Shown in pieces: positions 22,832-59,740 of a stretch of DNA of 64,000 nucleotides. This DNA comes from Pegea sp. RAD2-039 (taxonomy: Eukaryota > Chordata > Thaliacea > Salpida > Salpidae): the NCBI GenBank assembly GCA_034620365.1, contig JAQGEQ010000177.1, positions 921,355 through 985,354 on the forward strand, written 5' to 3'. The notes below the pieces were generated by a model, which was not told the DNA's origin, made no database searches, and saw only the letters and a program-made list of their open reading frames with translations. Each line of letters begins with the position of its first letter. Position 1 is the stretch's first letter. Both the position numbers and the translations under genes were made by a program.

Positions 22832-24010
22832 ATGATTTTTGAATGTCAACTGGTGTCAAATGTCTTGAATCTTTGGGAGATAAAAGATGTTACAGTTATG
22901 CTCCTTCAAACATCAAATGGAAATGGATATATGGCTATTTATGAAAAGAAAACTGGAGAAGCATCAAAACTTGTAGTTTATGAAGTTATTTGGGGAAAGA
23001 TGGTGATTAACAATATAGATGGACGTAGGTGGGAATCACAACCAGATGGTGTGCTGTGTGTTAATTGGGGAGGAATGCAAATGGAATATTTCATGAATTG
23101 TGGTTCAGGAGGCTATAAGTTTTCCAAATCAAGTAATAAAAGCTTTCAAAGTGATTTTTCTAATTTCACCCAGATAGGTGAAATCAATCTTTCTACTCTG
23201 AATCAATCATATCCAAAATTGATTATTGAGGGCATTCACTATTTTCAAAGTCCTGTTAGTTTGACTACTATGATCAGTCATAAAGTAAGCTATGACGCTA
23301 TTACAAAGTTAACTTTGTACAATAATAATCTGACTTCCATTCCCAAAGAAGTTTTTTGTTTTAAAAATCTTGATGCTCTTCATTTGGACAATAATCAAAT
23401 TTGTGAATTAAACGAAGACATTTTTAATGTTGATTCCAGATTAGTTGCTACTCTGAGAATTTTGACTTTGTCTTTTAATCAAATTCAAAAGTTACCATTG
23501 AGTTTATTTAAGTTGAAGAATATTCAAAATATTAATTTGAATTTTAATGTTATTAAGTATATTCCTAATGAGATTGGGAATCTAAGCAAGCTGCGACATT
23601 TAAGTATCAATGGTAATCAGCTAACATGCGTACCCGCCGGTATATCGAAACTATCAAATCTCAAAAAGTGGCTTATGGATGCAAACCCACTTTTACAAAT
23701 TGATGACGAAGCTCCTCCTATTAAGTCAGAAATTGAAGATATCCCAACGTTGTATAATAAATGCTTAAATGCTGTCTACAAGAACAAGTTACTGTCGGAC
23801 AAAAAACCTCTTATATTAAAATTGTCTAGTCGTTATGAGGAGCGAAAAACTTGTCTCTGTGGTGATAAGGTTTTTAATGAATCGCGAAACAACTTGGTGA
23901 AGATAAGTAGATCTATATTTCAACCACAAACCTTTCCTGTTGAAGTAGTAAATTGCAGTAATCGATGTTATGTGGAACAGATGTCCAAACTTACAAACTG
24001 GAAACCTTAA
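22832..24010 (+). CDS. LRR1: LRR1-like CUL2 ubiquitin-ligase substrate receptor, copy A
   Basis: Intact, intronless, 392 residues, close to the roughly 414 of vertebrate LRR1. Residues 1-115 form the family's PH-like N-terminal domain. Residues about 150-290 hold five to six leucine-rich repeats (LTLYNNNLTSIP, LHLDNNQICELN, LTLSFNQIQKLP, LSINGNQLTCVP). TLYNKCLNAV (306-315) matches the Elongin-C-binding BC box, with a hydrophobic Cul2-box-like stretch after it. A C-terminal cysteine pair set (C341, C343; C375, C379) matches the CxC...CxxxC end of LRR1. CUL2-LRR1 ubiquitylates replication and cell-cycle proteins, including the terminated CMG helicase. This copy has W79 where B and C have R79. 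The start MIFEC aligns with the family N-terminus, so the frame is complete. Confidence 0.8.
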   Translation: MIFECQLVSNVLNLWEIKDVTVMLLQTSNGNGYMAIYEKKTGEASKLVVYEVIWGKMVINNIDGRRWESQPDGVLCVNWGGMQMEYFMNCGSGGYKFSKSSNKSFQSDFSNFTQIGEINLSTLNQSYPKLIIEGIHYFQSPVSLTTMISHKVSYDAITKLTLYNNNLTSIPKEVFCFKNLDALHLDNNQICELNEDIFNVDSRLVATLRILTLSFNQIQKLPLSLFKLKNIQNINLNFNVIKYIPNEIGNLSKLRHLSINGNQLTCVPAGISKLSNLKKWLMDANPLLQIDDEAPPIKSEIEDIPTLYNKCLNAVYKNKLLSDKKPLILKLSSRYEERKTCLCGDKVFNESRNNLVKISRSIFQPQTFPVEVVNCSNRCYVEQMSKLTNWKP

Positions 24011-25552
24011 ATCTCTGCTTAACGCAAATCAATATTCATTTTAATCGATAACTTACAGTTGTTATAAATATTTTGTTATAATTTGTGAAGATGAATTTTC
24101 GTGAATTTTTTTGAAAGTTTTTGTGAGATATTTTCTTAATAATTATTATGTGAGACTAAATAAGTTTATATATCAACAAATTGCTGAATATATTGTTGTT
24201 GTTAATCAGTAGGCAATTTTGTCTTCTGTATTTTATCGAATGTGATTTGTTTTAGTATAACTGCATATAAATGGTTGATCACTTATTAAAATTTGTCAAA
24301 CCAATTTGAATTTTTCTTTGCTTTTGTCAGATATCGTTTAAATACAGTATAAAAGTTATCTTGTTTTCTGCAATAAATTTCCTTAAGAAAAGGGTGCCTA
24401 AAAAAACACCTATCGCTAAGACACATTCACGCAGTAAATATAATTATAATATCAACAGATAAAAAATAGATAGCTTCTTGTAGCTTAGTAGTTTTTGTAC
24501 AATATAGCAATGTGCAATTAAATAGAATGTTAATAATAATAAAAAAGTCAAAGTTTAGAAAGAACAGTTGTAGTAATAATAAAAAACCTAGCTTCAGCTT
24601 GAAAAGCATAAAAATCATTTCGATTTTTAAAGTTTTATATACTTAAAAATACCATTTCAAGCAGTTCTTCAATAAGTGAACAAAAACTAATAGTAATTTC
24701 AGATCTTTTATTGGATTAATTTTAGAAAAATATTTTTTTTCTCAGGAACAACGAAAAGCATCTGAGTTGACGTCAATCACTAACAGAATTCAGCAGATTC
24801 ATAACAGTAAAGTACTTTTGTAGAGTGATGACGTGTCTTAAGTTTTAATTACAAAAATAGAGATGTAGGAGTAATTAAAGATGATCTTTGCTTAGGCACA
24901 GATATAATTTCGGATTACCGAAAACAAGTTAGCGGTTTCCTAGCACCAAAAGCTGCCCGGAGTTTATTGAATACTTTAGAAAGTCTTTTGTTTCAGGTAT
25001 TATGATAAAAACTCGAAAATCTTCTCCAAGGATAAGGATATCTTTGACAGATGAATTATTATATCATGCACACTTGTACCATCGAGGCTAATAGTAAACC
25101 AACCCTGCGACTAGAAATAACTATACACGAGTGCAGTTGATGTCATGAACTATCATAAGCTACGACTTTGATGAAACAAAGACCGTCATCACGAAAACAG
25201 AATCTACATCCAGCTGAATCCGGAAAGAGTCTAAAAACTCGCTGGATCAGTGCAGCGTCTGGATTCTTGAGTGCAGATGATGTCATGCTTCCATTTAGTA
25301 GAGACTCTTGTGTTGGATGAAGTGATTACAGATCACGTCAAATGTTGTAATCAGATTTGTGGTTGGTATGATAATAACTCTGTATATAGAGCTTTACTCA
25401 ATTGCACAGACGACTAGATATAACTATACACGCTACAACCAGCACCACAGTCAATTTCACAATGAACTAGGTATATAAAATAGCAAACGTTGACATATTT
25501 ACGTAAGCGGCAAAATAATCTACCACCAACCAATACAAATATAGGGCAATAT
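24011..25552. other. Conserved 3' segment of the LRR1 repeat unit
   Basis: This is the gene-free part of copy A. It includes an ATAAA-type polyadenylation candidate (CTGCAATAAATTTCC, about 24371), a CRE-like TTGACGTCAATC (about 24767) and a GC-richer stretch 24880-25550 that is almost identical in B and C. In that stretch, ACTAGAAATAACTATACACG-type strings recur about 305 bases apart. Frames of about 60 codons are open on either strand but no protein family is recognisable. It may be non-coding or a non-autonomous element. Confidence 0.35.
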
Positions 25553-26127
25553 AATATAAAGCGCAATTATGTTTCCAAAATCTTTGGAAAATCAATCAAC
25601 CTTGTCTTCCTTATTATAAAGACCTTTAATTCTAAGGACCAATGCTTTAATTGACCACAATTTAATTGACATTCAGTTTGATGATTTCTTTTCCATTAGT
25701 CCTTCCCTCAAGTTATATCAGCTCAGACGACACACCTTACATCTTAATAAGTCTATATCACCTGGTACATTAATATTACAGCAAATTAGTTCTCATAACG
25801 TTTGAATAATACTTGGAACCAACTGTCATCAGATATTGTCATCTCAGAACCACTTGCGTTGTTCAAGAAGTCGAACCGTTTTAATGTTGCCATAATTGTC
25901 ATTTATGAACTGTGACTTTTTTCCCTTCTTTGTAATAACTATCTATGTAATTATTATATGAAGCTATCTTGTATTGTATAGGACTAATGAAACGCCAAGA
26001 GTTACATCTCTTTCTTTCTATGTTTCTAACTTAATACGTATTATTTGTGAGAATGTGTGTGAGCGAGAGGTGCTCTCTTCAGACACCCTTCTTTGGGTTT
26101 ATTGTAAGAAATAAATAGATAAATAAA
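25553..26127 (+). mobile_element. 5'-truncated CR1-like LINE fragment (after copy A)
   Basis: Starts at the equivalent of SKIFGKSINL in the reverse-transcriptase C-terminus, has lost about 240 internal bases after GACCAATGCTTT, resumes at the equivalent of LIDLHFYDFFSISPS, and runs to the conserved 3' UTR (GCGAGAGGTGCTCTCTT) and an ATAAATA tail. It is the same family as the element at 33019-36556. Similarity to the LINE fragment after copy C covers the start and the 3' end; beyond the tail the two loci are unrelated. Confidence 0.8.
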
Positions 26128-27008
26128 AATTAAATAATTGAAACAGTTGAAGTTGATGAAGATAAGCTGTATATATAAGCTGATATGTATAAAATGTCTG
26201 TCGGAACTGATGCAGATGAAACAGCAGGAACTTATGAATTATAAAACTTGTTAACATTCATTTTGAAAAACCTATGAAAGTTATTAGCTTGATACTTACT
26301 TGACTTTTTTAAAAGAAACATATAACTTTGATGAAATGCTTTAACTGTTGTATACTTATCTTATTAAACTGACTTATGCTTATTGAATTGCGTTTTCTTT
26401 ATTATATTTGGACATGTAATTGAACCTTTTTAAACTAACTTGAAATGTATTTCTAAATCTTTCTAGACCTTGTTGGACAGCCATGTTGTAAATATTAACT
26501 TCTAATTTTCTAATTAAAACCTCTTTTTAAAGATCACAATAATCATCTTACTAAAAGTGTGTTTCAACAACTTTTTGTATCAGTCATTTTTATTGTCAGA
26601 CACCTTTTTCAACAACTCAGATACATAAATCGCATTAGCTACGAGTTTCTTAATTTACTAAATTTATAAAGTAGAATACAAAACTACTGAACAAGAAAGT
26701 TTAAACAGAAGAATTATTTTAAGAAAATTGCTAAAATGAAAGTTTTGTTAAAAAGCCAAACTTAACTATCGAGACTTGAGAATAAATATTAATATTTATA
26801 AATTGTAATAAAAAGGAAAGAAAATATCAAATAACATTGGCTCAACTAATATAATTGGTATTGCAAAGAATAAATAAGAATTAAGCTGTGAAGTGACAAG
26901 TGTTTTGGCAAGTTAATCTAGTGAACATTTTTCTCGGGATATTTCTTTTATTGATTTTAATATCAGGGAATTTTTATTACACTGTTTTTCGTAAACTTAA
27001 CAAATTAA
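26128..27008. other. Intergenic region
   Basis: No supportable gene. AT-rich sequence lies between the LINE tail and a small plus-strand gene. Confidence 0.45.
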
Positions 27009-27325
27009 ATGGGAAGACACAACCACAAATTTGACCCTTGTGTTAAAAAGATAAAGGAACAAGGGAAAGTATATATTTACACTAAGCACTCGAAATCATC
27101 GAGCGATTTTGTCAAGTGAAAATATATCAAATATTAAAGAAGTTGATAAAAAGGGAAGAAAAAGAGAAGAAGAAAAAGAAGCTACCATTTACAAATAATC
27201 ACCTGAAGAAACCAAAAAACAAACAATTTCCACAACACACATTTCGTGATTCTATTCATTCGTGCAATTTAAATTTGAAAGAAGAAAAATTAAGAAGTAG
27301 CAACATTAGGGGAGTACATCAGTAG
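27009..27325 (+). CDS. Small lysine-rich protein, two exons, unidentified
   Basis: Exon 1 (27009-27068) encodes MGRHNHKFDPCVKKIKEQGK. A 71-nt intron (GTATAT...TTAAAG, 27069-27139) is followed by exon 2 (27140-27325) in phase 0, ending at TAG. The product is 81 residues, with a KREEKEKKKKK run and a less biased C-terminus (HTFRDSIHS...SSNIRGVHQ). Composition suggests a nuclear or nucleolar protein; the family was not recognised. The intron size matches those in the adjacent SEC23 gene, and the two genes converge with only 66 bases between stop codons, so their 3' UTRs probably overlap. Without splicing neither part makes a convincing gene. An upstream exon is possible. Confidence 0.45.
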
Positions 27326-27391
27326 CCTGATGTCCAAAGTGATGCGGCTAGCATGAGACGAGATTGGTCCAGCAAACAACTTGTCAAGTGT

Positions 27392-31912
<4,521 letters not shown>

Positions 31913-32449
31913 TCAATAAAGGTTGACAAAGTAACGAATTTCTTTCGGAACTGAAGTGAGACCACTAAAAGCTAGATTTAAATGTGTAATTGAAGAGTAG
32001 CTGATACTATCTTTTACTACAGCAGTTAAATTTATGCTATTACTTTTATATTTCACCTTCCAAACATCTAATGTTGGGCAAACTCGTTTCAGATTAGAAA
32101 TGTCGATTTCTTCAACAGGAGAAAAGTTAGAAAAATCACTTTTTGGCTTATCCAAACAAGCATCCAAAAGTTCATATCGACCCAAACCAGAACTTCTGAA
32201 GTATCGTATTGTGGAAACATCAAGAAATAAAATTGCACCTTGCGGTTGTTGTGGCCCCCCAGCATTTTCAACCGCAGTCATGGAGCCAGCAAAGACTTCG
32301 AAAATATTAACCACTAAAATCCTCGATGCTTTCTCTTCACAAAAAACCATATACCGCCGTTTATCTGGCGTTGTCAAAAGCATCACTTTTCTAGTTTCTA
32401 CGACCTCAAAGCCATTTTGCACACTCCACACAAGACAATCAAAATGCAT
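31913..32449 (-). CDS. Truncated LRR1 paralogue: PH-like domain with one repeat
   Basis: An open frame of 178 residues starts MHFDCLVWSVQNGF and aligns along its whole length with the first 180 or so residues of the LRR1 copies. Shared motifs are SDFSNFSPVEEI (SDFSNFTQIGEI in the copies), SISYSSITHLNL (KVSYDAITKLTL) and LTSVPKEI (LTSIPKEV). It stops (TGA) right after the first leucine-rich repeat, so the BC box, Cul2 box and terminal cysteines are absent. It is much more diverged than copies A-C, so it is an older duplicate. It may be a decaying remnant or a PH-only protein that could compete with full-length LRR1 for partners without binding CUL2. Same strand as SEC23. Confidence 0.55.
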   Translation of the reverse strand: MHFDCLVWSVQNGFEVVETRKVMLLTTPDKRRYMVFCEEKASRILVVNIFEVFAGSMTAVENAGGPQQPQGAILFLDVSTIRYFRSSGLGRYELLDACLDKPKSDFSNFSPVEEIDISNLKRVCPTLDVWKVKYKSNSINLTAVVKDSISYSSITHLNLAFSGLTSVPKEIRYFVNLY

Positions 32450-33400: not shown

Positions 33401-33456
33401 CCACTTGACCCACATCACCCTTATTCAACCTCTCTTCGCACAAAATTATTAATACT

Positions 33457-36395
33457 ATGCTTCCAGCCCAAGATAACAGTACACAGAAGCCTACCACCAA
33501 ATCTTACAAGTGTCAAAAAGACAATTTTTCTTTTATATTAGGTATGTTTTTCAACGCACGGTCAATTGTCAACAAAATTTTCGAATTGAAAGCTCTTTTG
33601 CTTTCTCAAGATTTTACATTTGTTTTCATTACCGAAACTTGGTTGAAACCCTTTTATCTTGACTCCTTTCTGGATGACAGTGATCTTTTTGTGCTTTCCG
33701 CTGTGACAGACTGTTTGATAGAGGCGGCGGTGTTTGTGTAATCTATAAAACATCACTGGCACATATGATTTCAAGAATTAAGATAAATACCATTGATTGC
33801 CCAGGATTTGAGATTATTGCTTTCAATTTTCATTACTCAAAGTCTAAGTTTTCCCGCTTTATATGTACCTACCTACCACCGTCTAATGTTAACAATGAGG
33901 TTACTATTAAGGCCTTATTGAAGGTTCTGAAAAGCCTTGTTTGTCCTGAGATTTATATTCTCGGGGATTTTAATTTTAGTAGAATTGATTGGAATAACCC
34001 AAATTTAGCATTCAATGGAAAATTGTTTAATTTGAATGGAGACAAAACTAATTTAGCCAATCTGAGTCATGTCTTTGTAAACTTCCTTGATGCCAATAAT
34101 CTATCTCAGATGGTTACTCTTCCAACCCAAGTTAGTGGTAATACTTTGGATCTTCTCATCACATCAAAACCTGAGAACGTTATCTACGTTGATCAAAATG
34201 AACCTTTTGCTCTGACATGCGATCACAACATGATTGAATTCAAGCTCCAACAATCTTTTTCTACGAACGTTAAAACTCCAAGCATACGGAACTTTTATCG
34301 TGGAAATTATAACAGTATAAACAAGTTTTTATCAGGTGTTGACTGGATTTCTGTTTTCAACTCTACCGAAGACATCAATGATATCTACTCGAGGTTTACT
34401 AACATTGTTAATGAGTCTATTAAAAAGTTCATACCTTTATATAGAGTCAACAAAAAACCCCACTTGCCAAGATATTTAAGGAACTTACAGCATTTGAAAA
34501 ACCTCTTATACAAACAAACTAAAGCAGATCCTTCCATCAAACCTCTATACAAAGATCTTTGTCTAGTCTACAAGAAATCAGTTTATAGCTTCTATTTAGG
34601 AAAAGAAAGTGCAATCTTATCTTCACCTAGCAAGAAAACCTTATTTGGCTTCATTAATCACAAGCTTAAGGCAAGATCTCATCTACCTCCCTTGCTTGAT
34701 AACGCCAATCAGCTGGTGATGGAACCAAAGAATAAAGCTGAATTGCTAAACAAACAATTTGAAAAAGTTTTTATAACCGATGATGGCAATACTCCTACAA
34801 TTTCCTACTCCAATATCCTTTCAAATATCTCTGAGATGGTAGATCTAGACATAACAGTTGATATAGTATCTAAGGCTATTTATTCTCTAAAATCAACAGT
34901 TTCCAAAACCCCAGATCAAATCCCAGCTTTGTTTTTAAGAAAAAGTACTTCTTCTTTAGCGCAACCCTTATCGCTACTCTTTAACATGACTCTTAAGCGG
35001 GGAAGACTTCCACAAATTTGGAAGAATGCTATTATTACTCCAATTTATAAGAAGGGTCCCAGAAACACTGCACTTAACTACAGACCAGTTTCGCTGACTT
35101 CAGTTATCTGCAGAACTCAAGAACATATCATTCACAACCATATAACTAGCCATTTGACGGAGCATCATCTAATATCCGATGTCCAGCATGGCTTTGTTAA
35201 GCAAAGATCTTCTTTGAATCAACATCTCACTTTTTTCAATGAGCTTACAGCTCATTACGAAAGTAATACTCCATGTGACATCATATACCTTGATTTTGCT
35301 AAAGCGTTTGATTCTGTTCCACACAACAAGCTCATTACTGTATTGAAAAACATAAAAATCAGCAACTCTATCTTAAAATGGATTGAAGATTTCTTATCAG
35401 GTAGAACCCAACGAACACGTGTAGAAAGATCTTTATTTACTCCTAGTAAAGTCACCAGCGGCGTTCCTCAGGGTTCCGTTCTGGGTCCACTTCTCTTTTT
35501 GATTTTCATTGAAGACCTCATCAGAAGACTAATAACAGTAGACAATGTCAGTGTGTTTGTGTATGCAGACGACATCAAGCTATTATCTGGTTCTCACTCA
35601 AAACTCCAAACTGCACTAAATATTGTAGAAAACTGGTCTGCGAATTGGCAACTTAAAATCCAGCCAACAAAGTCTGAAGTTATAACATTCTCCCGTAAGC
35701 CAGCTGCCAACTTCAGCAACCAATACTACATCAATGGATCTATTCTTGAACGAGTATCCTCAGTCATAGACCTCGGCATTACTCTGACATCTGACTTCAA
35801 ATGGCACAGTTATGTTTCCAGAATCTTTTAAAAATCTATCAAGCTTGCCCACCTTATCATTAAGACTTTTAATTCTAAAGATCCATGGTTTTACGTCAAC
35901 CTTTTCAAACTGTACATACGCCCTATTCTTGAATACAATGTCAGTGCATGGATGCCATATCAAGTTGGTGATATCAGAAAAATCGAATCTGTTCAGGCAA
36001 CATTCACGAGATTGGTTTGCAGGAAACTTAATATCAAATACGAGAGTTATAAGCATCGTCTCAGCTTCTTCAATCTAGATACTTTGGAAATCCGAAGAAT
36101 TAAATACGACCTTATTCTGATTTTTAAACTTATTCAAAACCTAATTGATCTTCATTTTTATGACTTTTTCTCCATTAGTCCCTCCCTCAAGTTCTATCAA
36201 CTTAGAAGACATAAATTACATCTTAATAAGCCCACTTCACCAGCTACGTTAACCAGATTAAATTTTTTCTCATACCGCACAATCAGTACATGGAACAATC
36301 TGCCATCAAAGATTGTCATGTCAAAATCACTTATGCTGTTCAAGAAAAAGCTGAATTGTTATAATATCGCCAACATTGCCATTTCTAAACTGTGA
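33457..36395 (+). pseudogene. LINE ORF2: endonuclease and reverse transcriptase with two lesions
   Basis: APE-type endonuclease: NARSIVNK and ITETWL (33550-33645), DRLFDRGGGVCVIYK (about 33710-33750), ILGDFN (about 33960), and SGNTLDLLI and CDHNMIEF. Reverse transcriptase: NYRPVSLTSV, DVQHGFVKQRSS, YLDFAKAFDSVPH, SGVPQGSVLGPLLF and the catalytic FVYADDIKLL (about 35555-35585). C-terminus: YIRPILEYNVSAWMP, VQATFTRLVCRKL, LNFFSYRTISTWNNLPS. One frameshift near 33690 separates the first frame from the rest, and one TAA at 35829-35831 replaces the glycine codon found in the fragments. The same frame continues after it to TGA at 36393-36395. The element is therefore recent but probably inactive. 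Confidence 0.85.
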
Positions 36396-36556
36396 ATTTT
36401 TCGCTTTTACAATACTATGATTCCGTGCAATTCTTCATTGTCATATGCTTTTTCGTTTACACGTCAAATAGATCTAGTTTGTGAGAATGTGTGTTAGCGA
36501 GAGGTGCTCTCTTTAGGAACCCTCCTTCACATTTATTGTAATAAATAAATACTAAA

Positions 36557-38214: not shown

Positions 38215-39491
38215 TTAATTTATATCGGAACTCTTGCTGAGAAAGGAAAGAATGAAGGTTTGTTTGATAGTGCTTTCTCGTTTCTTAGCAGGAAACTCAC
38301 GGAATTGGACAAGTTGTGACATACTTTCTAGTATGGCTTCTGGTTGACAACGATAGTAGGCTAAGTAATCATCCATTTTCTGCATGGCTTCACAGTGAGA
38401 GAATGGACACTTTGATGATTGTGGAACATCATTTTCGTCTTCAACCTCCTCATCCGCCTCTTTTTGTTGTCTCCAGAAATCAGTGCAACAATTCCTTGCT
38501 CGTCCATGTGCTCATACCCAGGACCATCGCAACTCATCCAGTTTTGGATATCATTGTCTATAAATGTGATATTCGTTCTCGAAGTTTGCTGGATAAACTC
38601 GCTGTTTGTAGTTTTTTCCGAAGGGTCACTGTTTTGCATGAAAGAGCTTAGTAATTGCATCAATTTCTTCCATGAGTTTCTTATAGCAGTAAGTGTTACC
38701 ATATCCCAAGCGGATGCAATGGTATCGATAATTTTGATGTCAATTCTTTTCAAAAAGTATTGTATGGTGAAGGTTGATTGCGATACAAGATCTCTCTGAG
38801 TCGACTTTCTATAAGCCCTTCTGATAGAATTGAACATACCTTGATCCATTGGTTGTATGAGTGCAGTGACATTTGGAGGCAGAAACTTGACAGTGATTGT
38901 TTGCTGATATAAGTTTGTCCTCACTTGGATGGGCCGATCAATTGCCGAGAAAGAAAATGGCCCTTTCTTCTTGTCCAAGATCTATCAGCTTTTGTTTCGT
39001 TTCGGGAACGAAACAGTTATAAACCCAATTTCGAAAAATATCACGGTCGACCCAAGAATTTGCTTGATTTCGGTAGACAGCCGGCAGCGCCTCCTTGTTG
39101 AGATTACGAAAATAACGCGGATTTTTGGTCTTACCAATTAACAATAAAGGTGACTTTATTGTTTCACTGGCATTTGCACAGGTATTTATTGTCACCCTGT
39201 CTTTTGCCTTTTTCGTTCCATCCGGCCGGTTGTGTACTGATGCTAAGATATGTCCAGGCAACATTTTAAAGTACAGTCCGGTTTCATCGCAATTAAAATT
39301 TGATGTTCGGAGTAGCCCTCGGTTATGCCAGAAAAATCATTAACGAATTGCTCAGCAGATGAGCTAACTGAACTTAATTTCTCACTGCATATTTTGAGAT
39401 TCCTCAAACCGAATCTTCCGCAAAACCTCCAAACAAACTTGCGACATAAGCGTAAAAATGGATTTATTGTCAGCTTTCCAGTGATCTCCAT
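38215..39491 (-). pseudogene. Tigger/pogo-type DDE transposase, decayed
   Basis: Minus-strand frames joined by frameshifts read: part of the CENP-B-type helix-turn-helix (GRFGLRNLKICSEKLS), then NFNCDETGLYFKMLPG (first catalytic Asp; frameshift just before it), then DRVTINTCANASE, SPLLLIGKTKNPRYF and LPAVYRNQANSWVD. The second-Asp region reads FFLGN-stop-SAHPSE where LLDNxSAHP is expected, so the Asp is lost and a stop follows. After another frameshift come KFLPPNVTALIQPMDQGMF and the C-terminal part with AWDMVT. About 120 N-terminal residues with the first DNA-binding helices are missing. It is clearly non-functional. Confidence 0.85.
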
Positions 39492-41730: not shown

Positions 41731-44700
41731 TATAATTTTGAAACTGATAAAGAGTTTTTGATTTTATAGTAAATTGATAAATATACTAAATACCTTTATC
41801 CAGTTTAGTTGGTTGATGAAAGTGAAACTGACTGTTGCTAAAAGTATTTATATTTTGGTTACGATGGTAGACTACAGATGTTTGAGTTTTATTTCTATGA
41901 ATCATTCCAGAAGTCCTTTTAACTTCTATTGGTCGACTTTTCATTGCATCATTCTCGATTTGAGGTTTCATATTCAACAAAAAAGGTTTTTCTAAATAAC
42001 AAAATTGATAAAAATTATGTTAAATGTGATAATAAGATGTTAAACAATTTAGATTTGATGAAAAAATATGATAATCTAATTTTAAAAACTCAATAGATAA
42101 TATTATCATTAGGTTTGCATTATTATGACTATAAATGACGTTTTTAATGAATATTAATAAAATAAAATTTAGATATACTTGTTGGGCTAATATTACAAAA
42201 TCCATCAGTTGTAATATTTTCATGTTTTCGTTTATTACAAGTCTTTTGTACAAAAGTATTGTTAAAATTGTAATCTTTATTAGCTTTGCTTTCAGATTGA
42301 TTAACTTTTGTCATTTTATTCTGACATGTTTTTTTTTATTTGTGGCTCACTGAAAACTATCAGACTTTTTCCAGCTGTTGATACAAAATAAATGTTTTAG
42401 AAAATCAAGTTTAATACTTTTGATATTTAGAATTCTTTGCCTATTTTCTAGTTATTATAAAGTTTGGCTTAATAATTTAAAAATAGTTTTAACCTAAATC
42501 TTTTGTTAGCAATTTCAATCCAAACTGTATGTCATCTTTAATATAAAAGAGATAAAGATAAATATGTTTACGTTACTGCCATCCAATTTGCATCTATATC
42601 ATTCATAGAGTTTTTACCAAGAAATTGCTGGATTTAAATCTACCATTGAGAATCATCTTTAGTCAGCTAAAAGAAAAATTATTCATGAATCAATTATAAA
42701 TGGATCTTAAACGATATGATAGAGAAAGTAATCATTTATCAAAATAATATCTGCATAAATACAATCTTCTTTAGTTTTTATTTAGATTTTATTGTTAATA
42801 CATTTTAATAAACTAAAAATTTCTACTTGAAATCATTTGACAAAAGTTAATGTCAGTGTGTCAGAATTCTACGAATGAGTTGCCCCTGGAATAATTTAAT
42901 TTGAAAATTGTTACTTCTTTTAATAAGCAAAAAAACTTTGATGATGATATTGCTTACATATTTAAACTAGAAAATAAGAATTTTGAATATTTTTATCGTG
43001 AAAAATAAGAAATAATTTTAGCTTTTCTTACTAATCTTTATTCTATGTGATAATTTGAGTTGTTTATCAGAAGAATATTTTACCGCTGATGTAGTTGTGC
43101 AGTCATTTTGGTACAGGCGCATCGCAATTACCTAGACTAGTTTGTGTGCTGAGTTGCTAGGCCTGCTTTCGTTTGTTATTAGTAGCTTTTACAATTGAAT
43201 AAATCTCTCTTAAAAAGTTCTTATTATTGAAACTTATTCATTTGCATGATATTTCGTTTTTGGAGATTTTGCTGGTTGTTTTGAGGTTATTCGAGCTTAG
43301 CGCAGTTAAAGCTTAGCAATGGTTAAGATAGTTTACCATATTGTTTTTGTTTATATAATTTAGTAGGATTTATTTCAGTTGTTTTAATTATTTTGTCTTA
43401 AACATAAAAAATTATATTTTGAGTATTTACAAAGTGTATATCTGAAGATTTATTAAAATTAAAAGGTTGATTATTCATTATTGTGAAAATTAACGGGCCG
43501 ATGTTTTAATTTTTCGATGGGCTAATTAATTTTATAATATTTAAATATATTTAATGTTTGGGTACAATTTTCTGCCAGAACTTGTTTTTGCAATTCATTA
43601 ACAATTTTTATTAAGCTTTTATTTCTTTTTAGTTTTTTTAATTAAAGTTAGTCAAAATTTTGAAATGTCTTGAATGTTATTTTATTTTAAATTATTATTT
43701 AAAAAATGGCTACTGCATCTTAAAATAGAATTCAATATACAATTTTTATAATAAAATTAAGTTTGCTTTTGATCTTTATTTATCTTTAGAGCTTATTTTC
43801 ATAAATTTAGTTTTTTAATGTATTCATAAAGAATTATTAAATAAAGTTTTTCTAATTAAAGTTTCTATGATTTATTTACAAAAATTTTGTGTACATAAAA
43901 TACCTATATTGAAACTTTCATACATTTGTTTGAATTTGCTTAATAATAATGTTTGCTTTGAATTTCTTGATATATTTTATATAAATTCACTAAATTTAAC
44001 ATTTTGTAAAAACTCTTGCAAATTATCTATTTTTATATTAAATGATTTCATTTTTAATTTTTTTTGTCCTAAAGAACTTTTGCTTAATAATATTGTTAAT
44101 TATACATTTATATTATATTTGAGATTTACTTTTATCGTTTAGAGATTACACTAATAATATGGTTAAATATGAGCTAATATCCACTTTATTAATAACTTGT
44201 AACTTTTTTATATTTTGCAATTCAGTTTGATGATGGGTTTTAAAATTATAAATATACATTGCTAAAATAAACCTGTTTAAACTTTGATAATAAAAAATTA
44301 TTTGTTAATCTAACCGAAATTATCAAATAATTTTGATTTAACATTTACACAAAAATTATTTATATAATTTAGTGAAACTGTTTCATAGATTTTAGCAAAA
44401 GATTTTTAGGAGTTATAATCAAGAGTATTATTATTTGGAAGCTTTATTTAGTTATTGTTACAGTTTAGTGTTAATCATACCAATTTCTAAAAAACATTTG
44501 TAAAAGTTAGTTTTAAATTTTAATTAGTTTTTATCATCAAACTTTTACTGTTATGATCCTTAAAAGGAATTAGAAAACTATGAGAAGTATAATAAATATA
44601 TAAATATTTGCAATTTCTAGGTTTATACTTTTACATCTAACTGTTTTTATCAAAAAAATCGAAAATGATTTTTGAATGTCAACTGGTGTCAAATGTCTTG

Positions 44701-47386
44701 AATCTTTGGGAGATAAAAGATGTTACAGTTATGCTCCTTCAAACATCAAATGGAAATGGATATATGGCTATTTATGAAAAGAAAACTGGAGAAGCATCAA
44801 AACTTGTAGTTTATGAAGTTATTTGGGGAAAGATGGTGATTAACAATATAGATGGACGAAGGTGGGAATCACAACCAGATGGTGTGCTGTGTGTTAATCG
44901 GGGAGGAATGCAAATGGAATATTTCATGAATTGTGGTTCAGGAGGCTATAAGTTTTCCAAATCAAGTAATAAAAGCTTTCAAAGTGATTTTTCTAATTTC
45001 ACCCAAATAGGTGAAATCAATCTTTCTACTCTGAATCAATCATATCCAAAATTGATTATTGAGGGCATTCACTATTTTCAAAGTCCTGTTAGTTTGACTA
45101 CTATGATCAGTCATAAAGTAAGCTATGACGCTATTACAAAGTTAACTTTGTACAATAATAATCTGACTTCAATTCCCAAAGAAGTTTTTTGTTTTAAAAA
45201 TCTTGATGCTCTTCATTTGGACAATAATCAAATTTGTGAATTAAACAAAGACATTTTTAATGTTGATTCCAGATTAGTTGCTACTCTGAGAATTTTGACT
45301 TTGTCTTTTAATCAAATTCAAAAGTTACCATTGAGTTTATTTAAGTTGAAGAATATTCAAAATATTAATTTGAATTTTAATGTTATTAAGTATATTCCTA
45401 ATGAGATTGGGAATCTAAGCAAGCTGCGACATTTAAGTATCAATGGTAATCAGCTAACATGCGTACCCGCCGGTATATCGAAACTATCAAATCTCAAAAA
45501 GTGGCTTATGGATGCAAACCCACTTTTACAAATTGATGACGAAGCTCCTCCTATTAAGTCAGAAATTGAAGATATCCCAACGTTGTATAATAAATGCTTA
45601 AATGCTGTCTACAAGAACAAGTTACTGTCGGACAAAAAACCTCTTATATCAAAATTGTCCAGTCGTTATGAGGAGCGAAAAACTTGTCTCTGTGGTGATA
45701 AGGTTTTTAATGAATCGCGAAACAACTTGGTGAAGATAAGTAGATCTATATTTCAACCACAAACCTTTCCTGTTGAAGTTGTAAATTGCAGTAATCGATG
45801 TTATGTGGAACAGATGTCCAAACTTACAAACTGGAAACCTTAAATCTCTGCTTAACACAAATCAATATTCATTTTAATCGAAAGCTTAAAGTTGTTATAA
45901 ATATTTTGTTATAATTTGTGAAGATGAATTTTCGTGAATTTTTTTGAAAGTTTTTGTGAGATATTTTCTTAATAATTATTATGTGAGACTAAATAAGTTT
46001 ATATATCAATAAACTGCTGAATATATTGTTGTTGTTAATCAGTAGGCAATTTTATCTTCTGTATTTTATCGAATGTGATTTGTTTTAGTATAACTGCATA
46101 TAAATTGTTGATCATTTATTAAAATTTGTCAAACCAATTTGAATTTTTCTCTGCTTTTGTCAGATATCGTTTAAATACAGTATAAAAGTTATCTTGTTTT
46201 CTGCAATAAATTTCCTTAAGAAAAGGGTGCCTAAAAAAACACCTATCGCTAAGACACATTCACGCAGTAAATATAATTATAATATCAACAGATAAAAAAT
46301 AGATAGCTTCTTGTAGCTTAGTAGTTTTTGTACAATGTAGCAATGTGCAATTAAATAGAATGTTAATAACAATAAAAAAGTCAAAGTTTAGAAAGAACAG
46401 TTGTAGTAATAATAAAAAACCTAGCTTCAGCTTGAAAAGCATAAAAATCATTTCTATTTTTAAAGTTTTAGATGCTTAAAAATACCATTTCAAGCAGTTC
46501 TTCAATAAGTGAACAAAAACTAATAGTAATTTCAGATCGTTTATTGGATTAATTTTAGAAAAGTACTTTTTTTTCTCAGGAACAACGAAAAGCATCTGAG
46601 TTGAAGTCAATCACTAACAGAATTCAGCAGATTCATAACAGTAAAGTACTTTTGTAGAGTGATGACGTGTCTTAAGTTTTAATTACAAAAATAGAGATGT
46701 AGGAGTAATTAAGGATGATCTTTGCTTAGGCACAGATATAATTTCGGATTACCGAAAACAAGTTAGCGGTTTCCTAGCACCAAAAGCTGCCCGGAGTTTA
46801 TTGAATACTTTAGAAAGTCTTTTGTTTCAGGTATTATGATAAAAACTCGAAAATCTTCTCCAAGGATAAGGATATCTTTGACAGATGAATTATTATATCA
46901 TGCACACTTGTACCATCGAGGCTAATAGTAAACCAACCCTGCGACTAGAAATAACTATACACGAGTGCAGTTGATGTCATGAACTATCATAAGCTACGAC
47001 TTTGATGAAACAAAGACCGTCATCACGAAAACAGAATCTACATCCAGCTGAATCCGGAAAGAGTCTAAAAACTCGCTGGATCAGTGCAGCGTCTGGATTC
47101 TTGAGTGCAGATGATGTCATGCTTCCATTTAGTAGAGTCTTTTGTGTTGGATGAAGTTATTACAGATCACGTAAAATGTTGTAATCAAATTTGTAGTTGG
47201 TATGATAATAACTCTGTAAATATAGCTTTACTCAATTGCACAGGCGACTAGAAATAACTATACACGCTACAACCAGCACCACAGTCAATTTCACAATGAA
47301 CTAGGTATATAAAATAGCAAACGTTGACATATTTACGTAAGCGGCAAAATAATCTACCACCAACCAATACAAATATAAGGCAATAT
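41731..47386 (+). repeat. Large LRR1-carrying repeat unit, copy B
   Basis: The longest copy, about 5.66 kb. It matches copy A from TAATTTTGAAACTGATAAAGAG onward and keeps about 320 bases (42350-42670) absent from A. From 42563 it also matches copy C. Its right end, CCAATACAAATATAAGGCAATAT, is the exact point where LINE sequence begins in A and C, but here unrelated DNA with an Arf pseudogene follows. Confidence 0.9.
44665..45843 (+). CDS. LRR1: LRR1-like CUL2 ubiquitin-ligase substrate receptor, copy B
   Basis: Intact and intronless, 392 residues, with the same domain order as the copy at 22832: PH-like domain 1-115, leucine-rich repeats about 150-290, BC box TLYNKCLNAV at 306-315, terminal cysteines 341, 343, 375 and 379. 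It differs from copy A by W79R, E195K and L329S plus about five silent changes. L329S changes the hydrophobic stretch after the BC box (PLILKL to PLISKL), where the Cul2 box is expected, so CUL2 docking could be weakened. R79 is shared with copy C and is probably ancestral. The upstream and downstream flanks carry the same candidate promoter patch (about 43090) and 3' segment as the other units. Confidence 0.8.
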   Translation: MIFECQLVSNVLNLWEIKDVTVMLLQTSNGNGYMAIYEKKTGEASKLVVYEVIWGKMVINNIDGRRWESQPDGVLCVNRGGMQMEYFMNCGSGGYKFSKSSNKSFQSDFSNFTQIGEINLSTLNQSYPKLIIEGIHYFQSPVSLTTMISHKVSYDAITKLTLYNNNLTSIPKEVFCFKNLDALHLDNNQICELNKDIFNVDSRLVATLRILTLSFNQIQKLPLSLFKLKNIQNINLNFNVIKYIPNEIGNLSKLRHLSINGNQLTCVPAGISKLSNLKKWLMDANPLLQIDDEAPPIKSEIEDIPTLYNKCLNAVYKNKLLSDKKPLISKLSSRYEERKTCLCGDKVFNESRNNLVKISRSIFQPQTFPVEVVNCSNRCYVEQMSKLTNWKP

Positions 47387-49110: not shown

Positions 49111-49149
49111 CTGTATTGTTTTTATAACAGAAGGAGATTGACATTACAA

Positions 49150-50255: not shown

Positions 50256-50259
50256 CAGT

Positions 50260-51098: not shown

Positions 51099-51099
51099 G

Positions 51100-52905: not shown

Positions 52906-55900
52906 CATGTTTACGTTACTGCCATGAAATTTGCATCTATATCATTCATGGAGATTTTGCCAAGGAATTGCTGGATTTAAATCTACCATTGAGAATCATG
53001 TTTAGTTAACAAAAGCAAATTTTTTCATGAATCAATTATAGATGGATCTTAAACGATATGATAGAGAAAGTAATCATTTATCAAAATAATATCTGTATAA
53101 ATAAGATCTTTTCTAGTTTTTATTTAGATTTTATTGTTAATACATTTTAATAAACTACAACTTTCTACTTGAAGTCATTTGACAAAAGTTAATGTCAGTA
53201 TGTAAGAACTCTACTATTTAGTTACTCTTGGAATAATCTATTTTGAAAATGTTTGCTGCTTTTAATGGGTAAAAAACTTTGATGATGATATTGCTTACAT
53301 ATTTAAACTAAAAAAAAAAATTTTGAATAGTTTAATCGTGAAAAATAAAAAATAATTTTAGCTTTTCTTACTAATCTTTATTCTATGTGATAATTTGAGT
53401 TGTTTATCAGAAGAATATTTTACCGCTGATGTAGTTGTGCAGTCATTTTGGTACAGGCGCATCGCAATTACCTAGACTAGTTTGTGTGCTGAGTTGCTAG
53501 GCCTGCTTTCGTTTGTTATTAGTAGCTTTTACAATTGAATTAATCTCTCTTATTATAGAAACTTATTCATTTGTATGATATTTCCTTTTTGGCGATTTTG
53601 CTGGTTGTTTTGGGGTTATTCGAGCTTAGCGCAGTTAAAGCTTAGCAATGGTTAAGATAGTTTACCATATTGTTTTTGTTCTATATAATTTAGTAAAATT
53701 TATTTCAGTTGTTTTAATTATATTGCCTTAAACATAAAAAGCTATATTTTGAGTATTTACAAAGTTTACATCTGTAGATTTATTAAAATTAAAAGGTTGA
53801 TTATTCATTAATGTGAAAATTAATGGGCTGATGTTTTAACTTTTTGATGGGCTGATAAATTCTATAATATTTAAATATATTTAATATTTGGGTACAATTT
53901 TATGTCAGAACTTATTTTGCAATTCATTAACAATTTTTATTGAGCTTTTATTTCTCTTTAGTATTTTAATTAAAGTTAGTCAAAATTATGAAATGTCTTG
54001 AATGTTATTTTATTTTAAATTATTCTTTAAAAAATGGCTTCTGCATCTTAAAATAAAATTCAATATACAATTTTTATAATAAAGTTATGTTTGCTTTTGA
54101 TCTCTATTTATCTTTAGAGCTTATTTTCATAGATTTAGTTTTTTAATGTATTCATAAAGAATTATCAAACAAAATTTTTCTAATTAAAGCTCCTATGATT
54201 TATTTACAAAAATGATATGTACATAAAATACCTATATTGAAACTTTTATACATTTGTTTGAATTTGGTTAATAATAATGTTTACTTTGAATTACTTGATA
54301 TAATTTATAACAATTTACTAAATTTAACATTTTGTAAAAACTCTTGCAAATTATCTATTTGTTATATCAAATGATTTCATTTTTAATTTTTTTTTCTGTT
54401 TTATAGAACTTTTCCCTGATAATATTGTTAATTATACATTTATATTATCATGATAATAATAATAATAACATGATAATTACTTTTATCGTTTAGATATTAC
54501 ACTATTAATATGGTTAAATATGAGCTAATATCCACTTTATTAATAACTTGTAACTTTTTATATTTTGCAATTCAATTTGATGATGGGTTTTAAAATTATA
54601 AATATACATTGCTAAAATAAAACTGTTTAAACTTTGATAATAAAAAAATTATTTGTTAATCTAACCGAAATTATCAAATATTTTTGATTTAACATTTACA
54701 CAAAAATTATTTATATAATTTAGTGAAACTGTTTCATAGATACTAGCAAACGATTTTGAGGAGTTATAATCAAGAGTATTATTATTTGGAAGCTTTATTT
54801 AGTTATTGTTACAGTTTAATGTTAATCATACCAATTTCTAAAAAACATTTGTAAAAGTTAGTTTTAAATTTTAATTAGTTTTTATCATCAAACTTTTACT
54901 GTTATGATCCTTAAAAGGAATTAAAAAACTATGAGAAGTATAATAAATATATAAATATTTGCAATTTCTAGGTTTATACTTTTACATCTAACTGTTTTTA
55001 TCAAAAAAATCGAAAATGATTTTTGAATGTCAACTGGTGTCAAATGTCTTGAATCTTTGGGAGATAAAAGATGTTACAGTTATGCTCCTTCAAACATCAA
55101 ATGGAAATGGATATATGGCTATTTATGAAAAGAAAACTGGAAAAGCATCAAAACTTGTAGTTTATGAAATTATTTGGGGAAAGATGGTGATTAACAATAT
55201 AGATGGACGAAGGTGGGAATCACAACCAGATGGTGTGCTGTGTGTTAATCGGGGAGGAATGCAAATGGAATATTTCATGAATTGTGGTTCAGGAGGCTAT
55301 AAGTTTTCCAAATCAAGTAATAAAAGCTTTCAAAGTGATTTTTCTAATTTCACCCAAATAGGTGAAATCAATCTTTCTACTCTGAATCAATCATATCCAA
55401 AATTGATTATTGAGGGCATTCACTATTTTCAAAGTCCTGTTAGTTTGACTACTATGATCAGTCATAAAGTAAGCTATGACGCTATTACAAAGTTAACTTT
55501 GTACAATAATAATCTGACTTCCATTCCCAAAGAAGTTTTTTGTTTTAAAAATCTTGATGCTCTTCATTTGGACAATAATCAAATTTGTGAATTAAACGAA
55601 GACATTTTTAATGTTGATTCCAGATTAGTTGCTACTCTGAGAATTTTGACTTTGTCTTTTAATCAAATTCAAAAGTTACCATTGAGTTTATTTAAGTTGA
55701 AGAATATTCAAAATATTAATTTGAATTTTAATGTTATTAAGTATATTCCTAATGAGATTGGGAATCTAAGCAAGCTGCGACATTTAAGTATCAATGGTAA
55801 TCAGCTAACATGCGTACCCGCCGGTGTATCGAAACTATCAAATCTCAAAAAGTGGCTTATGGATGCAAACCCACTTTTACAAATTGATGACGAAGCTCCT

Positions 55901-57725
55901 CCTATTAAGTCAGAAATTGAAGATATCCCAACGTTGTATAATAAATGCTTAAATGCTGTCTACAAGAACAAGTTACTGTCGGACAAAAAACCTCTTATAT
56001 TAAAATTGTCTAGTCGTTATGAGGAGCGAAAAACTTGTCTCTGTGGTGATAAGGTTTTTAATGAATCGCGAAACAACTTGGTGAAGATAAGTAGATCTAT
56101 ATTTCAACCACAAACCTTTCCTGTTGAAGTAGTAAATTGCAGTAATCGATGTTATGTGGAACAGATGTCCAAACTTACAAACTGGAAACCTTAAATCTCT
56201 GCTTAACACAAATCAATATTCATTTTAATCGATAATTTAAAGTTGTTATAAAATTTTTGTTATAATTTGTGAAGATGAATTTTTTTGAAAGTTTTTGTGA
56301 GATATTTTCTTAATAATTATTATGTGACACTAAATAAGTTTATATATCAACAAATTGCTGAATATATTGTTGTTGTTAATCAGTAGGCAATTTTGTCTTC
56401 TGTATTTTATCGAATGTGATTTGTTTTAGTATAACTGCATATAAATGGTTAATCACTTATTAAAATTTGTCAAACCAATTTGAATTTTTCTTTGCTTTTG
56501 TCAGATATCGTTTAAATACAGTATAAAAGTTATCTTGTTTTCTGCAATAAATTTCCTTAAGAAAAGGGTGCCTAAAAAAACACCTATCGCTAAGACACAT
56601 TCACGCAGTAAATATAATTATAATATCAACAGATAAAAAATAGATAGCTTCTTGTAGCTTAGTAGTTTTTGTACAATGTAGCAATGTGCAATTAAATAGA
56701 ATGTTAATAATAATAAAAAAGTCAAAGTTTAGAAAGAACAATTGTAGTAATAATAAAAAACCTAGCTTCAGCTTGAAAAGCATAAAAATCATTTCGATTT
56801 TTAAAGATTTAGATGCTTAAAAATACCATTTCAAGCAGTTCTTCAATAAGTGAACAAAAACTAATAGTAATTTCAGATCGTTTATTGGATTAATTTTAGA
56901 AAAGTACTTTTTTCTCAGGAACAACGAAAAGCATCTGAGTTGAAGTCAATCACTAACAGAATTCAGCAGATTCATAACAGTAAAGTACTTTTGTAGAGTG
57001 ATGACGTGTCTTAAGTTTTAATTACAAAAATAGAGATGTAGGAGTAATTAAAGATGATCTTTGCTTAGGCACAGATATAATTTCGGATTACCGAAAACAA
57101 GTTAGCGGTTTCCTAGCACCAAAAGCTGCCCGGAGTTTATTGAATACTTTAGAAAGTCTTTTGTTTCAGGTATTATGATAAAAACTCGAAATTCTTCTCC
57201 AAGGATAAGGATATCTTTGACAGATGAATTATTATATCATGCACACTTGTACCATCGAGGCTAATAGTAAACCAACCCTGCGACTAGAAATAACTATACA
57301 CGAGTGCAGTTGATGTCATGAACTATCATAAGCTACGACTTTGATGAAACAAAGACCGTCATCACGAAAACAGAATCTACATCTAGCTGAATCCGGAAAG
57401 AGTCTAAAAACTCGCTGGATCAGTGCAGCGTCTGGATTCTTGAGTGCAGATGATGTCATGCTTCCATTCAGTAGAGTCTTTTGTGTTGGATGAAGTTATT
57501 ACAGATCACGTCAAAAGTTGTAATCAAATTTGTGGTTGGTATGATAATAACTCTGTATATAGAGCTTTACTCAATTGCACAGACGACTAGAAATAACTAT
57601 ACACGCTACAACCAGCACCACAGTCAATTTCACAATGAACTAGGTATATAAAATAGCAAACGTTGACATATTTACGTAAGCGGCAAAATAATCTACCACC
57701 AACCAATACAAATTTAAGACAATAT
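52906..57725 (+). repeat. Large LRR1-carrying repeat unit, copy C
   Basis: Begins at ATGTTTACGTTACTGCCAT, equivalent to 42563 in copy B, so it is about 830 bases shorter on the left. It is otherwise colinear with A and B. It has a private insertion, ATTATCATG(ATA)nCATGATAAT at 54444-54477. Its right edge is the LINE junction at CAATAT, as in A. Confidence 0.9.
55016..56194 (+). CDS. LRR1: LRR1-like CUL2 ubiquitin-ligase substrate receptor, copy C
   Basis: Intact and intronless, 392 residues, with the same PH-like domain, leucine-rich repeats, BC box (306-315) and terminal cysteines (341, 343, 375, 379) as the other two copies. Changes from copy A are E43K, V52I, W79R and I271V, with only about two silent differences seen by eye. 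No change touches the BC box, Cul2-box region or cysteines, so this copy looks fully competent. It is followed downstream by the same LINE fragment as copy A, and about 2.8 kb further by a decayed relative at 58990. Confidence 0.8.
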   Translation: MIFECQLVSNVLNLWEIKDVTVMLLQTSNGNGYMAIYEKKTGKASKLVVYEIIWGKMVINNIDGRRWESQPDGVLCVNRGGMQMEYFMNCGSGGYKFSKSSNKSFQSDFSNFTQIGEINLSTLNQSYPKLIIEGIHYFQSPVSLTTMISHKVSYDAITKLTLYNNNLTSIPKEVFCFKNLDALHLDNNQICELNEDIFNVDSRLVATLRILTLSFNQIQKLPLSLFKLKNIQNINLNFNVIKYIPNEIGNLSKLRHLSINGNQLTCVPAGVSKLSNLKKWLMDANPLLQIDDEAPPIKSEIEDIPTLYNKCLNAVYKNKLLSDKKPLILKLSSRYEERKTCLCGDKVFNESRNNLVKISRSIFQPQTFPVEVVNCSNRCYVEQMSKLTNWKP

Positions 57726-58523
57726 AATATAAAGCTCAAGTACGTTTCCAAAATCTTTGGAAAATCAATCAACCTTGTCTTCCTTATTATAAAGACCTTT
57801 AATTCTAAGGACCAATGCTTTTTTATCAATCTTTTCAAATTGTACATACGTCCAATTCTTGAATACAATGTTAGTTCATGGATGCCATATCAAGTTAGTG
57901 ATATCAAAAAAATCGAATCTGTTCAGGCCACATTTACGAGATTAGTATGCAGGAAACTTAATATTAAATATAATAGTTATAAACATCGTCTAAGTCTCTT
58001 CAATTTAGATACTTTGGAAATCTGACGGATTAAATACGACTTAATTCTTATTTTTAAAATTAACCACAATTTAATTGACATTCAGTTTGATGATTACTTT
58101 TCTATTAGTCCTTCCTTCAAGTTATATCAGCTCAGACGACACACATTACACCTTAATTAGCCTCTATCACCTAGTACATTGGTCAGAGCGAATTTTTTCT
58201 CATACCGCACAATTAATACATGGAATCAGCTGCCATCAGACATTGCCATGTCGAAGTCGTTCGCGTTATTCAAGCAGAAGTTGAACCGTTATAGTATTGC
58301 CAACCTTGTCATTTCTAAACTGTGATTTTCCCCTTTTTTTATATTATTAACATTCTATGTAATTGTTCACTGTTATATGCTTTGAGTTCTATCGAAATAC
58401 CATGTATTACATCGTTTACTTTCTATATTTCTAACTTAATATATGTTATTTGTGAGAATGTGTGTTAGCGAGAGGTGCTCTCTTCAGGTACCCTCCTTCC
58501 CCATTATTGAAATAAATAAATAT
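57726..58523 (+). mobile_element. 5'-truncated CR1-like LINE fragment (after copy C)
   Basis: Reads KLKYVSKIFGKSINL, then YIRPILEYNVSSWMP, VQATFTRLVCRKL and FNLDTLEI, where a TGA interrupts. It continues in decayed form to the 3' UTR (GCGAGAGGTGCTCTCTTCAG) and an AATAAATAAATA tail. Unlike the copy-A fragment it has kept the middle 240 bases. The unit-LINE junction is identical to that of A. Confidence 0.85.
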
Positions 58524-58985
58524 ACCCTTAAAGTTTTGTCATTCAAAAGTAATCTGTTCAACAACTTTAATAGCACCCAGTGCAGTAACAACTTTTTGAA
58601 TAGGGTAACCATGGTTTGAAATCTTTTTTCTAACTCTATTATTATATCAAAATCTATCACCTCTTTTATAATTCTGTTTTTTGGGGTATTTGTAATTGTA
58701 GGAGATATAGAACTTAAGGATATTGTAGATAATTTTAAATGATTTATACCAGTTTGCAAATATGTTTTTTAATTAAACTTATAAGTTTAATTTTGTTTGA
58801 GTATTTATCTTCAAAGAAACTAAAAAATGAAATTATAATTTTTTTCAGGTTTGCGCCTTAATTACTTTATGCTTCTTTTCTTCTGGAAAAGTTGTTTGGC
58901 ACTCATAGGTAACCATTCATTTCAAGAGTAGCTGAGAAATGTATTTTCTGTGTAACATCAAGGAATATGATTTAAACACATATAA
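58524..58985. other. Intergenic sequence
   Basis: Begins immediately after the LINE tail. The minus strand has an open frame (58484-58759) rich in leucine and charged residues, but I cannot support it as a gene. Confidence 0.35.
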
Positions 58986-58989
58986 ATTT

Positions 58990-59740
58990 GTCTATGTTAA
59001 AAGTACTGTAACACTTTTAAGAACTTCCAATGGTTGTTTATAAAGTACTAGATGAAAATAAATCAGAAGTTAAGATTTATAAAGTCAATGAAGGTTTTAT
59101 GAGTAACTCAAGTAGAGAAAGAAAGACAATACCAAGAGGTATGTTGTCTGTTACCGAGTATAAAAATACAATTTTTTTAAAATTCCGATTCACCACTTGG
59201 CTTTGAATTTAATTATTTTAAAGGAAGAGTTCAAACTGATTTTAGTAATTTTACTCCAGTAGATAAAATAAATAATTTTAATCTAAAACAGTCATATCCA
59301 AACCTGGTGCTTGAAAATGTGGTTTTTGATAGTAGAAGTGGTCCCATAAGTGATAAGTTGGAAAATGAAACCAGCTATAACGACCAGCTTAAACGGAAAT
59401 CGTTTTTTGAACTTCCCAAAGAAGTTGCTAACTTTAGAAATCTTCATGCTCTTTCAGCTAGTAGTTGCAGAATTGAAAAGTTGCCGGAAGATTTGTTTTC
59501 CATTCATTCAGAATTAAATACCAGTTTAAAAGTTTCAGATCTTCATGAGAATCTAATTGAAGATCTTCCATCAAACTTTTTCAACTTGGTACATATCGAC
59601 AAAATCAATCTTTTTTGTAATAGTCAAACATTTTTACCTGATAAGTTCCACAACTTCCCTAAACTACAACGCTTGTTGGTTGATGACCTTCAAGTTTGCC
59701 TGCCACCTTATTGGAACTGTCAAGTCTACAATATTGTGAT
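58990..59740 (+). pseudogene. Decayed LRR1-family member
   Basis: Plus-strand frames follow the LRR1 order: STVTLLRTSNG (DVTVMLLQTSNG in the intact copies), then after a stop/shift VVYKVLDENKSE, then after another frameshift near 59195 GRVQTDFSNFTPVDKI (SDFSNFTQIGEI) and LKQSYPNLVLENV (LNQSYPKLIIEG). Repeats follow: FFELPKEVANFRNLHAL, IEKLPEDLFSIHSEL, IEDLPSNFF. Similarity ends around CLPPYWN; the BC box and C-terminal cysteines are missing. The open frame from 59307 is only the surviving part. It is more diverged from A-C than they are from each other, so it is an older duplicate, not a broken copy of unit C. Confidence 0.8.

Follow-up and report, generated by a model that had tools for sequence, protein, structure and literature searches.

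LRR1 is described as the substrate receptor of the CUL2-RBX1-Elongin B/C ligase (human chain 7plo_O, Xenopus chain 7shk_L), with a PH domain in its N-terminal part that is needed for CMG recruitment (PMC8682755). The 64,000-nucleotide stretch of DNA from Pegea sp. RAD2-039 that was analysed here (the window: assembly GCA_034620365.1, contig JAQGEQ010000177.1, positions 921,355 to 985,354) contains five loci of an LRR1-like family of leucine-rich repeat (LRR) proteins. Analysis of the window and of the genome points, with moderate confidence, to a lineage-specific, selectively maintained repertoire of predicted LRR1-derived Elongin C/cullin receptors with diversified targets.

The proteins resemble LRR1 in length (~400 aa) and in layout, with an N-terminal domain of ~110-150 aa, a short LRR solenoid, and a C-terminal BC-box region followed by the motif CxC...CxxxC; they differ from it in sequence (~21-22% identity), in an unrecognisable N-terminal domain, in the frequent absence of a strict Cul2 box and in their many copies. 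LRRC58, described as a CUL2/CUL5 receptor with LRRs, a BC box, a Cul2 box and a zinc-binding loop (PMC13156300), shares this combination of parts but is not matched by the C-terminal profile of the family (hhalign against LRRC58 alone: 0.3%, E 0.23). PRAME of eutherian mammals is reported to be an expanded LRR family that associates with Elongin C and CUL2 (PMC3584020, PMC4878042), positive selection has been reported for one of its clades (PMC3037382), and its VHL box lies at the N-terminus (PMC4878042). The window family is likewise expanded and has a link to Elongin C/CUL2 that is predicted from sequence, but its VHL box is C-terminal, and the likeness is not a claim of common origin. The F-box and MATH-BTB expansions of nematodes and plants likewise consist of many cullin-ligase receptors whose target-binding parts evolve fast; they resemble the window family in these respects but use CUL1 or CUL3 and are not Elongin-based. 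Expanded families of cullin-ligase receptors are already known, and an LRR1-derived expansion would apparently be new; no report of one was found in what searches of the open-access literature returned.

LRR1-like genes in the window and the genome

The window forms the final 64 kb of contig C47 (985 kb), which belongs to an assembly of 105.7 Mb and 387 contigs. The three full-length copies announced in an earlier note on this DNA are present as intronless ATG open reading frames (ORFs) of 392 aa on the plus strand, at 22832..24010 (copy 1; own-genome E 7.7e-265), 44665..45843 (copy 2) and 55016..56194 (copy 3), and are 99% identical to one another as proteins. In copy 1 the LRRs start at about residue 157 and are followed by the BC-box region (residues 305-314, TLYNKCLNAV) and a four-cysteine (Cys4) motif at residues 341, 343, 375 and 379. 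The two remnants that the note had listed are also real. The truncated copy on the minus strand (31913..32449, 178 aa, 35% identical to copy 1) consists of the N-terminal domain and the first LRR only; it is probably a pseudogene fragment, because it lacks the docking module, and it sits in a 1.2-kb partial duplicate (98.5%) of a full-length gene, L017 (C47:910283-911434), ~10 kb beyond the window. The decayed relative is placed at about 59139..59882 (plus strand), where the own-genome search gave a match interrupted by one in-frame TAA (C47:980493-981065, window 59139-59711, E 1e-22) that ends before the docking module; it includes an open stretch at 59181-59882 and has an equal-scoring partner at C47:273199-273771. 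With own-genome E values from 3.5e-20 to 7.7e-265, chance is excluded for all five loci.

The own-genome search returned at least 44 matches at E<=2.1e-9, 22 of them without stops and 22 with stops; only the best candidates were scored, the weaker rows include ordinary LRR proteins, and the family counts are lower bounds. Twenty-one intact ORFs were extracted from 30 fetched loci, the 22nd being L036 on contig C76, and a second query with the divergent member L029 recovered the same 22 and no additional full-length member. When near-identical groups are counted once, about 17 distinct paralogues remain. The intronless genes are spread over many contigs; eight of the 22 lie on C47, three of them inside the window, and five of these eight are near-identical; the identity of the remaining paralogues to the window copies is 25-46%. 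All 16 members scanned match Pfam LRR_8 (tandem LxxLxLxxN repeats) and so belong to the LRR superfamily. Several loci do lie close together, as the note had proposed, but the expansion is genome-wide and "local" understates it; the proposed diversification holds across the genome. Homologue search and tree together gave at least 22 intact relatives and one separate LRR1 orthologue, on contig C57.

Elongin docking is likely for many members, to judge from their motifs, since a strict BC box, (S,T,P)Lxxx(C,S,A)xxx-hydrophobic (PMC4878042), is found in 13 of the 22 intact copies, including all three in the window (3.5% of shuffles), the Cys4 motif CxC...CxxxC is found in 20 of 22, again including these three, and Elongin C is encoded in the genome. 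The strict BC box is missing in the other nine intact copies. Key residues of the tail are conserved (N313, P326, the four cysteines and G344; entropy <0.6). Elongin C is apparently encoded by two genes (G000 C249:435090-435526 and C67:494607-495082, respectively 77-79% and 60-61% identical to human Elongin C by exon), the second of which could be linked to the receptor expansion.

Relation to LRR1

A search of the genome with human LRR1 found its top gene at C57:185797-187026 (31% identity over residues 1-408, E 8.7e-39), the next-best match having E 6.3e-13. The C57 gene is a single open frame whose product has the Cys4 motif, a BC box (SLQEICSKHI) and a Cul2 box (LPYLIRLFI). In the PDB it is matched best by the two LRR1 chains, which align from its first Met (the query started 12 codons before this Met and lacked the last ~24 codons). 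In an unrooted tree of all 22 intact copies with the C57 and human proteins, the latter two are paired at 100/100, apart from the family, although deep branches within the family are weakly supported. A full-length match that includes the N-terminal PH region, as expected of an LRR1 orthologue, is found for the C57 gene and not for the family. By orthology, the C57 gene is clearly the predicted replication-type LRR1. With it the window proteins share about 21% identity, and they align to human LRR1 over the LRR and docking region only, so the claim that the lineage has amplified the replication receptor itself is not supported.

Nevertheless, the family placement that the note had made survives in part: the architecture and the C-terminal tail are LRR1-like, whereas the N-terminal domain is not, and Pfam and NCBIfam gave generic LRR matches only, those of NCBIfam far below cut-offs. 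The whole-protein profile (A1), built from 16 of the 22 intact copies without the near-identical L002-L005 and L019 and without L036, matches human LRR1 at 99.2% (hhalign, E 1.5e-19) over columns 152-384, the tail included. The C-terminal profile (A3), built from 15 copies (the same set minus the tail-less L018) and excluding the LRRs, matches the C57 and human proteins together at 73% (E 3e-5) and the C57 protein alone at 62% (E 7e-5). Searched against 177,635 PDB sequences, it has two matches at E<=10, one of which is human LRR1 (E 0.55), colinear to its end; LRRC58, present among the sequences searched, was not matched. Single-sequence PDB searches with the N- and C-terminal parts yielded no LRR1, and the LRR1 match needed a profile. 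The tail, with its BC-box pattern and Cys4 motif, is by sequence of LRR1 type, and is the only part of these proteins that is.

Conservation, variation and duplication of the copies

The five near-identical copies on C47 have coding sequences that are 99.0-99.6% identical and free of indels, compared with 93.9-96.0% identity in the upstream 2 kb; the downstream flank is 97.7-98.8% identical among four of the five, the fifth not being comparable. Around copy 1, a block without gaps among four copies (22650..24049, plus strand) comprises ~180 bp before the ATG as well as the coding sequence, and its divergence per 200-bp step is 0.2-1.1%, against 2.3-7.5% before it and 0.6-3.2% after it. The 19 variable coding sites of the five copies comprise 9 synonymous and 10 non-synonymous sites, a depletion of non-synonymous changes (Fisher p 0.006), and pairs of young copies have synonymous divergence (dS) of 0.004-0.034 and non-synonymous divergence (dN) of 0.003-0.006; for the pair L006/L007, dN/dS is 0.38. 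This pattern is a sign that purifying selection acts on the gene and, probably, on its proximal promoter too.

Among the paralogues, variation was mapped on 15 of the 22 intact copies (the A1 set minus L018; L018, L019 and L036 are among those left out), with concave and convex classes taken from five LRR repeats after a putative repeat start at 264 was discarded as spurious. Variability peaks at repeat positions 3, 5, 7 and 8, which lie on the concave face (2.5-2.9 bits); mean entropy is 2.46 bits for the concave face versus 1.84 for the non-consensus convex positions (permutation p 0.0001). The pooled proportion of non-synonymous differences (pN) is 0.56 for concave, 0.40 for convex and 0.20 for framework positions, and 0.47, 0.45 and 0.38 for the N-terminal domain, the VHL-box region and the zinc region, respectively. 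Estimates of dN/dS, which are rough because the pooled proportion of synonymous differences (pS, 0.61-0.72) is near saturation, are 0.72 (concave), 0.23 (convex), 0.11 (framework), 0.58 (N-terminal domain), 0.28 (VHL box) and 0.34 (zinc region); no class exceeds 1, so these values do not demonstrate positive selection. The lower dN/dS of the VHL-box region than of the N-terminal domain stems from a higher, near-saturated pS, pN being about equal, and greater overall constraint on the docking region was rejected. A docking pattern that is kept beside a variable recognition face suggests, from the alignments, the expected look of a diversified receptor set.

Each full-length window copy lies in a duplicated unit of ~4.7-4.8 kb (20850..25552 with copy 1, 42667..47386 with copy 2 and 53012..57821 with copy 3), and the units are mutually 95.7-96.7% identical. 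The young copies were duplicated at the DNA level, since the units retain their flanks; intronlessness is not in itself a sign of retroposition, because the LRR1 orthologue on C57 likewise consists of one uninterrupted frame. A 622-bp dispersed repeat stands to the left of unit 1 (20234..20855) and of unit 2 (41732..42355) and occurs at a minimum of 18 places in the genome, these two included (40 of 3210 candidates scored), nine of which are less than 8 kb from the start of their contigs. A dispersed repeat related to long interspersed nuclear elements (LINEs) lies directly to the right of unit 1 (25649..26117) and is 78% identical to 58058-58522, to the right of unit 3; it occurs at more than 20 places, nearly all at 78-82%, and is related to sequence 3' of a LINE ORF at 33765. 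Recombination between these flanking repeats is the likely amplifier.

The LINE-type ORF itself (33765-36451) encodes endonuclease and reverse transcriptase domains, and a second copy of the stretch from its end onward (35811-36451) lies at 57741-58383. Fragments of a DDE_1 transposase of pogo/Tigger-like type occupy 38364-39336 on the minus strand. A 951-bp duplication (1026-1976 and 4287-5237, 98.9% identical) carries near-identical 128-aa ORFs at 1079 and 4340; one of these ORFs was scanned against Pfam and gave nothing above cut-off. Exon pieces of a Sec23 gene (28045-31311, minus strand; one of the three pieces scanned passes the Pfam cut-off) lie on the downstream side of the truncated LRR1-like ORF and suggest that ordinary genes here contain introns. 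An Rfam search of the window found nothing at gathering scores. The genome was judged to be probably that of an invertebrate animal: searches for the nematode leader SL1, for a rotifer spliced-leader pattern, for the arthropod cuticle domain PF00379 and for nematode TTR-52 (PF01060) were all negative, but as the family searches, three in all, recovered none of their 14 controls, they speak only weakly against an arthropod or a nematode.

Alternatives and significance

Several results weigh against a selectively maintained, LRR1-derived repertoire. Against human LRR1 alone, the C-terminal profile reaches only 18% (E 0.0014); in the PDB search an unrelated VLR/TLR4 chimera (E 0.5) outranked LRR1, whose second-placed match was not significant; and the whole-profile match to human LRR1 owes most to the LRRs. 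Ordinary LRR proteins (for example C3:3941036, E 1.4e-10) are interleaved with family members in the genome search with human LRR1, so the LRRs alone do not assign the family. The profile of the N-terminal domain (A4, 16 copies) has no relation to the LRR1 PH region (hhalign probability 0.3%) and no LRR1, nor any detectable relation, among its PDB matches; this domain has no Pfam match either, and the PH label that the earlier note gave it is not supported. A strict Cul2 box, (hydrophobic)Pxx(hydrophobic)xxx(hydrophobic), occurs in only five of the 22 intact copies (6.5% of shuffles), and the window copies keep PLIL with a K before the P in place of the first hydrophobic residue. The BC box and the zinc cysteines, and thus the docking module, have been lost from the intact pair L018/L019 (C240:8175 and C160:58993, 97.8% alike on two contigs). 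The near-saturated pS blunts the dN/dS comparison, and the VHL-box region is as variable as the N-terminal domain (entropy 1.99 each, pN as above). The young pair L003/L004 has equal dN and dS. Divergence at synonymous sites of the young copies is below that of the upstream flank, and in two 200-bp steps downstream the sequence is conserved to the same degree as the coding sequence (0.6% divergence), so that some of the identity could be due to gene conversion.

These results bear on four alternatives. An unrelated LRR family might have gained a BC-box/zinc tail independently, as the occurrence of such a tail in LRRC58 illustrates; whole-protein PDB matches led by generic LRR proteins, the divergent N-terminal domain and the modest match to the human LRR1 tail alone fit this account, but the C-terminal profile favours LRR1 over LRRC58, and the order of N-terminal domain, short LRR, docking region and zinc motif within ~400 aa is that of LRR1, which makes it very unlikely. 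Only slightly less improbable is that the copies are extra doses of replication LRR1 that still recognise the CMG helicase at termination and increase or adjust the unloading of replisomes: they do carry an LRR1-type tail, but a well-conserved orthologue exists separately, identity to it is low, and it is where LRR1 has its CMG-recruiting PH domain that similarity to LRR1 is absent. Passive amplification, in which repeat-rich duplication keeps producing decaying copies that mostly have no selected function, deserves more weight, although we consider it rather unlikely. Half of the strong matches (22 of 44) carry stops, the duplicated units are embedded among dispersed repeats and several intact copies have no strict BC or Cul2 box; nevertheless, the coding and proximal upstream sequences are better conserved than the upstream flank, the coding sequences have no indels, the non-synonymous depletion and the L006/L007 ratio point the same way, and 22 ORFs of about 370-420 codons are still open, the G+C content of the window being 22-37%.

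As an explanation, an assembly effect on part of the copy number (uncollapsed haplotypes or a misjoined contig end) is very improbable. The last 11 kb of the window (52907-64000) are an inverted copy, 98.2-99.6% identical, of C47:268.9-280 kb that reaches the contig end; around copy 3, the inverted match is to C47:270.5-280 kb, at 98.2%. The copy at C47:276730 and copy 3 may thus not be independent of each other, but alleles or the product of a misjoin. Three pairs of loci on different contigs (L018/L019, L022/L023 and L024/L025) show 97.5-99.7% identity across almost all of the sequence fetched, which suggests uncollapsed haplotypes elsewhere in the assembly. On the other side, the three window units share contig and orientation, differ in the sequence between them and are 95.7-96.7% identical, and the other paralogues, given their 25-46% identity to the window copies, cannot be alleles. 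The window copies are therefore not haplotigs of one locus, as the note had allowed they might be, though misassembly could still play a part, and the count of diverged paralogues is unaffected by assembly duplicates.

In a diversified repertoire of LRR1-derived receptors, the C-terminal tail would dock on Elongin B/C and thereby on CUL2 (or CUL5), so that each protein would act as the substrate receptor of a cullin-RING ligase. The concave LRR face, perhaps with the fast-evolving N-terminal domain, would pick the target, and the paralogues would differ in substrate. Dispersed-repeat recombination would amplify the units; selection would act on the youngest copies, which would be expressed, and some gene conversion would occur among them. 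A more specific version can be offered only tentatively: a PRAME-like, fast-diversifying repertoire in which a hypervariable concave face might let every copy recognise a protein of its own. Such a repertoire might serve in germline conflict or in defence within the cell against mobile elements or viruses, with the docking-less L018/L019 as competitors.

LRR1 is known mainly as a receptor of replication termination and the cell cycle. If the family is what its sequences suggest, the LRR1 receptor design can be recruited to new targets, and this genome would hold many natural variants with which to map substrate recognition of the LRR1 type.

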